Part shown: piece after piece, positions 32,929 to 37,021 of the stretch
How the letters are laid out: each line of letters opens with the position of its first letter
Position numbering within the stretch: position 1 is the stretch's first letter
Assembly: GCF_002283555.1 (NCBI RefSeq)
Contig: NZ_MVOI01000015.1
Location: 124,001 to 188,000, forward strand
Origin: Rubrivirga sp. SAORIC476
GTDB lineage: Bacteria; Bacteroidota; Rhodothermia; Rhodothermales; Rubricoccaceae
Direction of reading: 5' to 3'
Length of the DNA stretch: 64,000 bases
Program-made: the position numbers and the translations under genes
Notes under the pieces: model-generated
What the model saw: only the letters and a program-made list of their open reading frames with translations
The model's database searches: none
What the model was told of the DNA's origin: nothing

Positions 32929-33357
32929 ATGACTGCCCAGCCCGGCGACGTCGTCTCCGTCCACTACGCCGGCCGTCTCGACGACGGCACCCCGTTCGAC
33001 TCCTCCGAGGGCCGCGCGCCGCTCTCCTTCACCCTCGGCGCGGGCCAGGTCGTCGCAGGCTTCGACGAGGCCGTGACCGGCATGTCGATCGACGAGCAGA
33101 AGACGGTCCGCATGGAGCCCGAGGCGGCCTACGGCGCCCGCCGGGACGACCTCGTGCTGACGGTCCCCACGGACGCGTTCCCCGGCGATGCGCCGCCGCC
33201 GGTGGGCCAGGGCGTCCGCCTCGGGATGCAGGGCGGCGGGTCCATCGAGGCCCAGGTGGTGGACGTGTCCGACGAGGGCATCACGCTCGACGCCAACCAC
33301 CCGCTCGCCGGGCAGGCGCTCACGTTCGACCTGACGCTGGTGGACGTGGCGCGGTGA
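32929..33357 (+). CDS. FKBP-type peptidyl-prolyl isomerase, SlyD-like
   Basis: 142 residues. VSVHYAGRLDDGTPFDSS starts the FKBP fold, and an IF (insert-in-flap) domain follows EPEAAYGARRDD. The closing segment DANHPLAGQALTFDLTLVDV is the SlyD hallmark. It catalyses proline isomerisation as a folding helper. There is no His-rich metal tail, so nickel handling is unlikely. Confidence 0.95.
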   Translation: MTAQPGDVVSVHYAGRLDDGTPFDSSEGRAPLSFTLGAGQVVAGFDEAVTGMSIDEQKTVRMEPEAAYGARRDDLVLTVPTDAFPGDAPPPVGQGVRLGMQGGGSIEAQVVDVSDEGITLDANHPLAGQALTFDLTLVDVAR

Positions 33358-33418: not shown

Positions 33419-33487
33419 AACCACCGCAACGCTCCCTCTGGGGCTGGCCGAGCCTAGAAGGCTGGCGCCGGAGGTCGGGGTGGGTCT
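33419..33487 (-). repeat. Cassette-associated palindromic repeat D (attC-like)
   Basis: About 69 bp of imperfect palindrome immediately after the stop of the 33486-33950 gene, with AAC at one end and GGGTCT at the other. On the minus strand it shares GGCGCCAGC, a TTCT loop and GCCAGCCCC with repeat B. It is a shortened relative of repeats A and B. Confidence 0.5.
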
Positions 33488-33950
33488 ACGGCATCTCGGC
33501 ACGCGCGCGCTGGACCCTGTCTGTCAAGCGGTCCAGCGCATTGAACGGGAACGGCTCGCGCCAGTGGGACCGGTACCCTTCTGCCCGCACTCGACTCGCC
33601 AGCTCCTGAAGCCCGCGCCAGAATGGGAGCACGATCTCGAGCGGAGCGCCCCACGTCTCCGCTCGGACCTCGGCTTCGCTCCTGGTGCGGCGACCCGACG
33701 GGTAGCTGATGACCCGAAACGAGACGGCGGAGGAGTCCGATGACTGGAACCGCCAGTCATGCTCGGAGGGCTCCTCGCAGATCCGCGCGACGTACTCGCC
33801 CGGGTCGCCCAGAACACCCGAGAGAGCAGCGACGAGCTCGCTGACGAAATCGTACGGGATGTACGACACGTCGAACCGGAGTTCTTGGCCCTCTACTTCG
33901 AGGACGGTCGGCAACCAGCCGCGGTGTGCCTTCCCGAATCGGAGCTTCAT
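33486..33950 (-). CDS. Hypothetical cassette protein 4
   Basis: 154 residues, MKLRFGKAHRGWLPT onward, with mixed alpha/beta character and a Trp/Arg-rich C-terminus (GYRSHWREPFPF). No family is recognised. GC content is visibly lower than in flanking core genes. It is the last of four minus-strand genes, each followed by an attC-like repeat, and its own repeat touches the stop codon. The gene is probably mobile. Confidence 0.65.
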   Translation of the reverse strand: MKLRFGKAHRGWLPTVLEVEGQELRFDVSYIPYDFVSELVAALSGVLGDPGEYVARICEEPSEHDWRFQSSDSSAVSFRVISYPSGRRTRSEAEVRAETWGAPLEIVLPFWRGLQELASRVRAEGYRSHWREPFPFNALDRLTDRVQRARAEMP

Positions 33951-33965
33951 GACGAAGGCGCTTGG

Positions 33966-34024
33966 CCAACCGCTGAGTGAGCAGAGAGCGCCCTCGCCCC
34001 ACGGTCAGCGGGCAGCGGCGGGTC
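33966..34024 (-). repeat. Cassette-associated palindromic repeat C (attC-like, about 59 bp)
   Basis: AACCGCTGAG on the left, GCGCCC near the centre, and TCAGCGGGCAGCGGCGGGT on the right, overlapping the stop codon of the next gene. It is the shortest element, close to the classic 59-base-element length. Confidence 0.45.
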
Positions 34025-34376
34025 AGGAGTCATGCCGCAGCACGCCGAGTTGGGGGTCCTCGCTCCTCCAGAACGCATCAACGGTGCCCTCGAAATCGAA
34101 CTGAATCTGGAGAAGACCAGCTCCATCAGGCTTCATGTAGTCCCACCCCCAGAGGTGCCGTCGCTGTCCGTCGTAATCGTGTGACCACAGGTCGTGCCCG
34201 AGACCTCTAAGTTCCTCGACGATGCGCTGGGCCTGCTGCCAATAGGTGTTCCAGTCATACTGATGTTCCGAGAGCCTCGATGTCAGCGCTTGCTCTAGTT
34301 CCCTCAGCCGCGAGCCTCTCTCGGTCTCAGGAAGGCTCTCGATGATCTGTCTGCTGAACTTGGGGTCTACCGGCAT
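34023..34376 (-). CDS. Hypothetical cassette protein 3
   Basis: 117 residues. The N-terminal half (about 15-65) is helical (LPETERGSRLRELEQALTSR), and the C-terminal half is Trp/Asp-rich and probably beta (HDYDGQRRHLWGWDYM). No family recognised. Low GC and placement between two palindromic repeats suggest a gene cassette. Confidence 0.65.
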   Translation of the reverse strand: MPVDPKFSRQIIESLPETERGSRLRELEQALTSRLSEHQYDWNTYWQQAQRIVEELRGLGHDLWSHDYDGQRRHLWGWDYMKPDGAGLLQIQFDFEGTVDAFWRSEDPQLGVLRHDS

Positions 34377-34393
34377 TCCAGTCCACGACGCGT

Positions 34394-34516
34394 AACAAGT
34401 TTGCCGCTTAGCCTCCGGGGCTGGCGGTGCGGCGGTTGGACGAGCGAAAGTAGGCGCTGACGTTCGGACGAACCAAGAACGCTGGCGCCCCCGGTCGGCC
34501 TACAGCGGTGGGTTCT
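34394..34516 (-). repeat. Cassette-associated palindromic repeat B (attC-like, 123 bp)
   Basis: Outer ends AAC (34394-34396) and GTT (34512-34514) bracket complementary arms: GCCGCTTAGCCTCCGGGGCT against GCGCCCCCGGTCGGCCTACA. The AAC side sits in GCGTAAC, one mismatch from the attC RYYYAAC box. It is strongly similar over its full length to repeat A. Confidence 0.6.
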
Positions 34517-34530
34517 GCGGCCGTCCTGGT

Positions 34531-34911
34531 TCAGATCACCAGCTGGATCAGCACCCCGATCCCCGCGCCGAGCAGCGCGAACGACACGAAGAGTAGGAGT
34601 CGGGCCGTCTGTGTCCGTCCCTTCCCCGCCTCCAAACCCTCGACCAGTTTGTCCTGCCCGAACAATGCCAGTGAGGCCGAGAGTGCGAAGGCAGCGACGA
34701 CTGCCCCGGACTTGAAGGTCGATTCGACGTAGCCCGCTTGGAGCAAGATGAGGACGCCGCCCGCGGCTGCCACGGCGAGCGTAGCGATCTGCTTGAACTG
34801 CTCGAACCGAAGCTGGTAGGTCAGACCGGACGGAACGTTGGGCTCTGAGGGCATCGGTTCCACACCGTTCGGCTCCGGCTCAACGAGATCGGGAAGTGGT
34901 TGCTCTTCCAA
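34531..34911 (-). CDS. Hypothetical small membrane protein (cassette 2)
   Basis: 126 residues. An acidic Pro/Glu-rich N-terminus (1-30) is followed by three likely membrane helices (about 42-60, 68-85, 104-124). No family recognised. Small three-helix membrane proteins of this kind are frequent among integron cassettes. It is flanked by repeats A and B. Confidence 0.65.
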   Translation of the reverse strand: MEEQPLPDLVEPEPNGVEPMPSEPNVPSGLTYQLRFEQFKQIATLAVAAAGGVLILLQAGYVESTFKSGAVVAAFALSASLALFGQDKLVEGLEAGKGRTQTARLLLFVSFALLGAGIGVLIQLVI

Positions 34912-34938
34912 AACGTTTGGGGCTATCGCGTAGGCCGC

Positions 34939-35063
34939 AGAACAGGGGGCCGCTCAGCCGCCCAAAGCTGACGACTGGCGGTTGGAAAGAAGCACAGGAT
35001 ACGCCGACGCTCGGATGAGCCGAGAACGCTCACGCTTTGGGTCGGCCTGCAGCGGCGGGTTCT
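34939..35063 (-). repeat. Cassette-associated palindromic repeat A (attC-like, 125 bp)
   Basis: AGAAC at one end and GTTCT at the other. Inside, GGGCCGCTCAGCCGCCCAAAGC is complementary, with two small bulges, to GCTTTGGGTCGGCCTGCAGCGG. The right arm overlaps the last codons of the HEPN gene, as attC sites often overlap cassette ORFs. It is homologous to repeat B. Confidence 0.6.
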
Positions 35064-35794
35064 ACCGCAGGCTTTAGGGCTGAGAGGTGCCTGTCTACAT
35101 CTGGTTTCAGCTTGTCGAACAAGTGGCTGCAAGCGGTCGTCAGCTTGTCCGCGACCTGGTCGATCTCCTCTTGCTTGGCCGCTACATACCGATCCGATCG
35201 GAGCTTGTAATGGTGATATCTCGCTTCGTCTGTTGGCTCGATCCTTACCACTAGATCAAACAGTATCACATCGTCCAACTCGTCGTCCGTGTGCCGAGCA
35301 CGATGGGCGATGAGATTCCGCTGGTTCCGGTATGGCTTGACGATGGCGTTGATTTCTCCAAGGACCCCTTGGACTGGAGAGCGTTTGACGTGACTGATAG
35401 TGCGGATGAGACGGTGGGTACAGTCCTCTGGCTGGAGACCCAAATCAAGAGCGTCGTTCACGAGAACCAAACAGCGGTCGAGACACCCCGTGGTGCGGAG
35501 GAAGAAGTTCTCGACGTGGTATACAATGTGATCTAGCCGAGTGATCTCGTGTTCTTTGAGGCGCTTGGTCGTGCGGAAGCCGGACAGGAAAAGGCCCGCC
35601 TGCCTGATTTGATTCAAATTGTCAATGACCGCAGGCACGGACGAGAAAAGGCGTTGTGCGTACTTCTCGTCCGAGTTGAGTTCTCGGGTCCACTCGACCT
35701 CGCGCCCGGTTCGCTTGGTCGCGCTTTGAAACGCAGCGTAATAGCCATCGCTGACGGCTGTGACCAGCGGATGTGTCAAAAGCGATTGCTTCAA
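35030..35794 (-). CDS. HEPN-domain protein, Cthe_2314-like (cassette 1)
   Basis: 254 residues, nearly all helical. RNLIAH at 159-164 fits the RX4-6H active-site motif of HEPN ribonucleases, within a Cthe_2314-like region (RLDHIVYHVENFFLRT, then NAIVKPYRNQRNLIAHR). HEPN proteins often act as RNA-cleaving toxins or defence effectors. No MNT-type antitoxin is adjacent, although an unrelated nucleotidyltransferase lies 411 bp away. GC is much lower than in the flanks. Its 3' end lies inside repeat A. Confidence 0.75.
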   Translation of the reverse strand: MKQSLLTHPLVTAVSDGYYAAFQSATKRTGREVEWTRELNSDEKYAQRLFSSVPAVIDNLNQIRQAGLFLSGFRTTKRLKEHEITRLDHIVYHVENFFLRTTGCLDRCLVLVNDALDLGLQPEDCTHRLIRTISHVKRSPVQGVLGEINAIVKPYRNQRNLIAHRARHTDDELDDVILFDLVVRIEPTDEARYHHYKLRSDRYVAAKQEEIDQVADKLTTACSHLFDKLKPDVDRHLSALKPAVEPAAAGRPKA

Positions 35795-35822
35795 TTGCTA
35801 CGGGCCTGCGGTAGAACCAGGA

Positions 35823-35847
35823 GTTATCCGGCACCGCGCCGGATAAC
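35823..35847. repeat. Perfect 10-bp stem-loop upstream of the HEPN gene
   Basis: GTTATCCGGC / GCCGGATAAC around a 5-nt loop. It marks the boundary between the cassette region and the tandem array. A short reading frame on the minus strand here (a membrane helix then VPDNSWFYRR) may be a remnant of another cassette. The rest of the 411-bp gap from 35795 to 36205 is the 21-bp tandem array. Confidence 0.5.
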
Positions 35848-35946
35848 GCGCAGAGCCAGACGACGAAGAACCCCGCAACGATACCCACGGATCGCCTCGC
35901 TGACAGCCCCGCCTAGCCCCGCACCCGGCAATTGTGAAGGCAATCC

Positions 35947-36198
35947 GACACGGCATCGGAGACCTCCGACATGGCATCGGAGACCTCCGACATGGCATCG
36001 GAGACCTCCGACATGGCATCGGAGACCTCCGACATGGCATCGGAGACCTCCGACACGGCATCGGAGACCTCCGACATGGCATCGGAGACACCCGACACGC
36101 CATCGGAGCCGTCCGACACGCCACCAGAGCATTCCGGCCCGGCCCCAGAGACCTCCGACGCGCCCCACGACGCCCCGGACACGCGTCCGGAGCCCGCA
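35947..36198. repeat. Tandem array of a 21-bp unit, 12 copies
   Basis: The unit GACAYGGCATCGGAGACCTC-C is repeated in exact 21-bp register twelve times. Copies 1-6 differ only at one T/C position, copies 7-9 carry a few changes, and copies 10-12 are strongly diverged. It lies between the nucleotidyltransferase stop and the cassette region. Read forwards in one frame it gives Asp-x-x-Ser-Glu-Thr-Ser repeats, but no convincing gene contains it. Confidence 0.9.
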
Positions 36199-36205
36199 AA
36201 CGCGA

Positions 36206-37021
36206 TCACCCGCCAGTCCGACTCCAGAACGGATCGTCCGGCCAGACCGCCTTCAAGGACGCGACCAGGAACGCATTCAACGGCTCGACCGAGCGCGGCG
36301 GCTTCGGCTGGTCGCCCGCACGCACCGCGAGATCGGCCAACTCGTCCTCCAGGTACGCGTGGAGCGCGGGCAGCCGCGGCCCCGCATCCGCCTCGGTGCC
36401 CGCCCGCTTCGCCACCAGCAGCCGGTCCACCTCCTCGCGGACCGGGCCGTCCGGAAGGAACCGCTCCACGAGCGGCTGAAGCTCCATCGGAGGCGTCGTC
36501 CCGTCCGCGTCGATCCAGAGGCACGAGAGGACGGGACGGAGCACGTAGAAGTACTTCTTGTGCCGGATCCGCTCCTTCCGAAGCTCCGCCCGGACGTTGC
36601 TCTCCGCCATGTGGAGGGAATGGTGGAAGCCCGCTCGCGGGTCGTAAAACGCCGACGCCAGCCCGCGCAACCCCTCCGCGACCGGCCCGACCTCCCGGTA
36701 GACCAGCGGCGACCGAAGCCACTCGAACAGCGGCGGGTTGGACTTGAAGAACAGCCCGAGCGCCTTCGGCAGGTCCCACCCCGCGAGGTCGATCTCGTCC
36801 ACGATGGCGTACTCGATCACGTCCCTCCGCTTATCGATCGCGAGGTACCACGCCGGGCGGTGGAGGTACAGAAACCGCACGTCGAAGTCGCTGTCGGCCG
36901 AGGCGAAGCCCCACGCCCGGCTCCCCGACTCGACCGCGTACACGATCCGCACGTCGTGCTCGGCCTCGACCGCGTCCAGCCGCCGCGCGACCTCGTCCCG
37001 TGGCAACCCGTCCGCCGTCAC
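36206..37021 (-). CDS. Predicted nucleotidyltransferase (YcgL/COG3541 type)
   Basis: 271 residues. ESGSRAWGFASADSDFDVRFLYL is the nucleotidyltransferase-superfamily signature: the GSRAWG glycine motif, then the metal-binding DSDFDV pair. The rest is helical (MAESNVRAELRKERIRHKKYFYVLRP). The GTG start overlaps the pyrC stop (GTGA), so it is translationally coupled. The role is unknown; related proteins AMPylate or modify other molecules. The gene ends just before the 21-bp tandem array. Confidence 0.87.
   Translation of the reverse strand: MTADGLPRDEVARRLDAVEAEHDVRIVYAVESGSRAWGFASADSDFDVRFLYLHRPAWYLAIDKRRDVIEYAIVDEIDLAGWDLPKALGLFFKSNPPLFEWLRSPLVYREVGPVAEGLRGLASAFYDPRAGFHHSLHMAESNVRAELRKERIRHKKYFYVLRPVLSCLWIDADGTTPPMELQPLVERFLPDGPVREEVDRLLVAKRAGTEADAGPRLPALHAYLEDELADLAVRAGDQPKPPRSVEPLNAFLVASLKAVWPDDPFWSRTGG

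Follow-up and report, generated by a model that had tools for sequence, protein, structure and literature searches.

A small cassette array of the CALIN type with an attI-like head in Rubrivirga sp. SAORIC476

The window analysed here, a stretch of 64,000 nucleotides of Rubrivirga sp. SAORIC476 (G000:C15:124001-188000), belongs to a genome of 4.48 Mb in 19 contigs. Four minus-strand open reading frames (35030-35794, 34531-34911, 34023-34376 and 33486-33950) lie in it, all between an FKBP-type gene and an RlaP-type nucleotidyltransferase gene. The GC contents of their cassettes (57%, 64%, 61% and 67%) are below the 71% of the window, in agreement with the sequence-only reading that had described four minus-strand genes of lower GC at this place. 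The features of the locus are listed below; the bit scores of the intact sites were obtained with R1, a covariance model trained on 35 attC sites from the source genome, A and B among them.

33445-33478, minus strand: C, decayed attC site, a portion of the 5' half (local match over 34 nt with score 43, reached in 0 of 300 shuffles)
33486-33950, minus strand: coding sequence of former cassette 4 (154 aa; found in 1 of 114 genomes of the order, the source genome only)
33979-34026, minus strand: D, decayed attC site, 5' half only (48-nt local match, score 39, reached in 0 of 300 shuffles)
34023-34376, minus strand: coding sequence of former cassette 3 (117 aa; found in 1 of 114 genomes of the order, the source genome only)
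34390-34518, minus strand: attC A, intact (R1 113.9 bits, E 4e-34 over the window)
34396-34942, minus strand: cassette 2 (small hydrophobic protein), with complementary ends GTTCTGCGGCC and GGCCGCAGAAC
34531-34911, minus strand: coding sequence of a small membrane-like protein (126 aa, hydrophobic segments, no family assigned)
34937-35065, minus strand: attC B, intact (R1 131.2 bits, E 1e-39 over the window)
34943-35816, minus strand: cassette 1 (HEPN), extending from the TT in its own R' as far as the G in attC B
35030-35794, minus strand: coding sequence of the HEPN_Cthe2314 family (254 aa, TTG start, contains RNLIAH (Rx4H); Pfam PF18730)
35818-35850, minus strand: attI-like array head, a 10-bp palindrome GTTATCCGGC/GCCGGATAAC followed by the core ATAACTCCTG^GTT
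35944-36159, no strand: 21-bp tandem repeat (TRF), beyond the array head and only a neighbour of it

The FKBP-type gene (FKBP_C, 78.6 bits) has its stop at 33357; L078 is its ortholog, as judged by the ORF. The RlaP-family nucleotidyltransferase gene at 36206-37000 (stop at 36206; Pfam PF10127, 278 bits) adjoins the array and was without a match among the other genomes of the family at E 1e-40. An empty site was sought in the relatives. In G003, the FKBP gene is followed by an unrelated gene without cassettes, and the RlaP neighbour was not found in relatives, so that no clean empty site was obtained.

The protein of the first cassette was assigned to the HEPN (Cthe_2314-like) family, as its PF18730 score of 47.7 bits exceeds the curated cut-off of 27.1 and the Rx4-6H motif is present in the form RNLIAH. 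With the Rx4H motif kept, it is probably an RNase of the toxin or defence type carried as cassette cargo. The final codons of its reading frame fall within attC B, and the overlap between a repeat arm and the end of the HEPN gene, recognised earlier, is therefore real. The HEPN, 117-aa and 154-aa proteins had no match when 113 further genomes of the order were searched, which fits the expectation for cassette cargo. None of the four array proteins was matched by PADLOC, and a tRNA was the sole Rfam match in the window.

Sites A and B are homologous imperfect palindromes of 129 nt each with outer AAC...GTT triplets, which bears out what had been claimed of their kinship and triplets. Their outer boxes read GCAGAAC...GTTACGC and GTAGAAC...GTTCTGC, respectively. 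Among the 39 sites of this attC family, 38 have AAC in R'' and 38 have GTT in R'. The fit to the general consensus RYYYAAC/GTTRRRY is only partial, as had been noticed, since the boxes of this lineage, such as GTAGAAC and GCATAAC, often differ from it and, within an array, the R' box is part of the cassette that follows. Meanwhile, the complementary arms of 30 nt proposed earlier proved to be a 20-bp stem with bulges plus terminal R-box pairing.

The known attC layout comprises R and L boxes, extrahelical bases and a variable terminal structure (PMC11641012). The consensus of the 35 aligned sites of the family shows a stem of 20 pairs, 13 of them with compensatory changes, and single-base bulges at columns 16, 20 and 24 on one side of the stem only; these one-sided bulges are the extrahelical bases that folding had been suggested to reveal. 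Both A and B contain the R and L stems, an unpaired spacer, 2-3 one-sided extrahelical bases and a variable terminal structure. It should be noted that R1 is a model of this lineage and not a published attC model; the cassette-end test, the adjacency to IntI genes in relatives and the random-genome control support the assignment independently of it. R1 gave 0 hits in 400 kb of random sequence of the same genome. The sequence-only reading had named failure of covariance models, together with a gene order conserved in relatives, as signs of ordinary intergenic repeats. Instead, A and B scored strongly with R1, and the gene order is not conserved, three of the four array proteins being without a match in the 113 genomes.

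A cassette inserted via a folded circle should have two ends that pair with each other and not with those of its neighbour. For this, the R' of site n was compared with the R'' of site n+1, which are the ends of one cassette, in 32 consecutive site pairs. The complementarity beyond GTT/AAC reached a mean of 7.9 nt, and a match of at least 4 nt was seen in 29 of the 32 pairs, while the controls gave means of 1.3 nt inside one attC and 1.5 nt in 10,000 permutations (maximum 3.2). The upstream attC carries the R' of the following cassette, and this R' pairs with the R'' at the other end of the same cassette. The ends of the HEPN cassette share 11 complementary nt and those of the small-protein cassette 8, and the former include a 15-nt exact inverted pair (35058-35072 / 35804-35818). 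The circle form of the HEPN cassette gives a complete attC fold, whose R-box stem has 14 bp, at -46.7 kcal/mol, compared with -34.7 kcal/mol for the linear site (12 better). Such pairing of cassette ends is unexpected for ordinary repeats and matches a G^TT exchange through a folded circle.

The claim of a palindrome after each of the four genes held for A and B, which are intact, but not for C and D, of which only half remnants are left. The latter two had been taken for shorter, complete relatives of A and B. As whole sites under R1 they scored 6.3 bits (E 0.5) and 9.4 bits (E 0.05) and did not form complete, foldable attC sites; what is present are 5'-half remnants of 34 nt and 48 nt. The local scores of these remnants nevertheless exceeded 300 of 300 shuffles and all of the approximately 290 background windows each. 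As C and D keep the 5'-half remnants only, the two distal cassettes are without a working attC. We conclude that the array consists of two intact cassettes, encoding the HEPN protein and the small membrane-like protein, and two dead ones.

The same attC family is found elsewhere in the genome. A search with repeat A hits 24 places, nhmmer with A and B as queries yields 39 sites, and R1 over the whole genome gives 42, most of them in one large array. The nhmmer sites are located on C11 (a tandem run of 24 at one end, four at the other), C12, C2, C3 and C9 and in the window. The array on C11 (L060 1-14650, G000:C11) has 24 attC sites and a mean cassette length of 630 bp. Since an identical attC lies inverted at both ends of C11, the assembly is probably broken there, and since array ends coincide with contig ends on C4, C9, C11 and C12, the main array was probably split by the assembly.

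The array was described earlier as having no visible integrase. This is true of the window, where tblastn gave no significant match to IntI and the array head held no remnant of it, but the genome does encode one integron integrase on contig C4 (C4:236-1246). It lies 235 bp from the contig start, scores 428.9 bits with TIGR02249 (cut-off 265) as the sole match above the cut-off in the genome, contains the Phage_integrase and SAM-like domains and is 51% identical to IntI1. Sites of the family are present in 9 of 9 family genomes and adjoin IntI loci in G002, G003, G004, G014, G019 and G031. In relatives, tandem R1 sites start directly beside a TIGR02249 integrase and are divergent from it, as in two arrays of G003; the earlier suggestion to look in relatives for the same repeats next to integrases was thus answered. 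In G002, three distinct integron integrases are found (L067, L068 and L085), each with a different attI type. Considering the sequence family, the one-sided bulged stem with covariation, the cassette-end complementarity and the IntI adjacency in relatives, we conclude that A and B are attC sites.

A and B lie 418 nt apart, no integrase is adjacent to them, and the window lacks the intI beside attI and array that makes up a complete integron. In known CALINs (clusters of attC sites lacking an integrase), at least two attC lie within 4 kb, no intI is nearby and an integrase is encoded elsewhere in the genome, and the array of the window is alike in this. The locus is almost certainly a CALIN, that is, a remnant or satellite cassette array that reads leftwards on the minus strand, starting at about 35.82 kb. 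The original CALIN reading therefore holds for A and B, with the qualification that two of the four sites are intact. The array differs from a typical CALIN in that the other two sites are decayed and an attI-like element stands at its start. As an array it is of the ordinary CALIN type already known; the attI-like start is its less ordinary part. According to established integron biology, the IntI from contig C4 would bind the folded strand of A and B and exchange at G^TT. Acting in trans, it could release the HEPN and small-membrane-protein cassettes as circles or bring in others, and the two distal genes would be frozen because their attC sites are no longer foldable.

The complement of the R'' of attC B places the beginning of the first cassette at 35816/35817, the presumed crossover. 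In the 13 nt before this GTT, the window head agrees with the integrase-adjacent attI at 9 of 13 positions (p=0.0067 against 5,637 own-genome GTT sites) and with the head of a dispersed array in G003 at 11 of 13, with 0 of the 5,637 GTT sites being as good. Local alignment with the longer attI was only borderline (1 of 300 shuffles). The heads of the short arrays on C2, C3 and C9, those being the ones that could be placed, begin at CGCAYAAKYACTG^GTT, which occurs nowhere else in the genome and matches the attI of a G002 integrase. A match to the motif CGCAYAAKYACTGGTT in G004 was rejected as chance, as it sits inside a cassette gene.

In G004, 119-134 bp of its own intI2 attI recur at three further loci with 92-97% identity, and the flanks fall to random. 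These copies (L206, L208 and L210, at about 242, 1424 and 2153 kb of C1) head integrase-less arrays. In G001, an identical 60-nt element is found at two loci (L229 on C214 and L230 on C516) with unrelated flanks and integrase-less arrays. No integrase was found by tblastn in the 18 dispersed loci. A follow-up set consisted of arrays retrieved while their heads were still unread; of its 7 usable heads, 6 resemble integrase-adjacent attI (p at most 0.033). G002_C1, among these seven, was on an earlier list, and an eighth head, G001_C648, was set aside for its attC-end-like upstream sequence (p=0.36). The heads L063, L229 and L230 resemble degenerate palindromic units of about 20-21 bp.

For some relatives the attI-headed reading is clear; for the window its support is moderate. 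The position of the array at an attI-like site suggests, with the same moderate support, that it may have formed by normal cassette insertion at an attI copy without intI and not at a random site. We tentatively propose that in Rubricoccaceae attI disperses without intI, as elements of 60-130 bp at several chromosomal sites with unrelated flanks, and that each may found an array served in trans by a distant IntI ("satellite integrons"), the window being one of them.

It is less probable that the cassettes were inserted at a non-classical genomic attG site without the involvement of attI. Insertion at attG is an established route into genomes (Loot et al. 2024, as cited in PMC11023631 and PMC12444791), and the lack of an intI remnant in the window and the only moderate likeness of its head to attI agree with it. 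However, the dispersed heads of the family resemble integrase-adjacent attI far past the GTT core, namely over 60 nt in G001, over 119-134 bp in G004 and with CGCAYAAKYACTG^GTT at three arrays of the source genome. As described in the papers that cite Loot et al. 2024, attG insertions are alike in placing cassettes away from the integrase locus, whereas the present sites share a long attI-like sequence and not a minimal core. We also consider it less probable that a complete integron (intI-attI-cassettes) lost its intI by deletion. CALINs are commonly taken as degraded integrons (PMC9024848), and the attI-like head, the decay of C and D and the 21-bp repeat at the place expected for intI would suit such a loss; however, no trace of intI is seen in the window or the 18 other dispersed loci, and in every copy the sequence shared in G004 and G001 gives out short of intI, at about 60-130 bp upstream from the crossover. 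Ordinary intergenic palindromic repeats (REP/BIME-like) can be dismissed in spite of the recurrence of imperfect palindromes of like size in the genome, as the sites form tandem arrays with one gene between repeats, have IntI neighbours in relatives, are absent from 400 kb of random own genome and show the G^TT cassette-end complementarity, which is unlike REP elements and refutes this explanation.

Salinibacter ruber belongs to the Rhodothermales. A complete integron has been reported in its strain M1, listed under Bacteroidetes (PMC9024848); it comes from the same wider group. The chromosomal integrons of Xanthomonas are alike in having an integrase locus and separate CALINs at other chromosomal sites, and CALINs near integrase-bearing loci are said there to be mobilisable in trans (PMC12444791). 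Unlike them, the separate arrays of the present family have attI-like heads, some in multiple near-identical copies. No account of dispersed attI elements was found in the literature searched, which, given its partial journal coverage, is weak evidence of novelty.

The CALIN of the window adds one small array in a group with few integrons described. If it is true that attI copies without intI found arrays at numerous sites, one integrase could serve many platforms per genome, and for Rubricoccaceae the view that CALINs are no more than degraded integrons would have to be revised.

Tandem repeats of 21 bp also occur at L009 1279-1358, L064 3062-3260, L186, L188, L192 and L203; one follows intI immediately on C4, and two others lie close to the array heads of C3 and of the window. 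Their tie to the integron loci (window, C4 and C3) is unproven, as four similar arrays were seen in 400 kb of random genome. Meanwhile, a filled and an unfilled state of one locus can be compared between two genomes: the LolD-type ABC and nadA-like genes, which are conserved neighbours, are 45 bp apart in G003 (L175), and a 2-kb cassette array lies between them in G000:C2 (L062 2309-4339).
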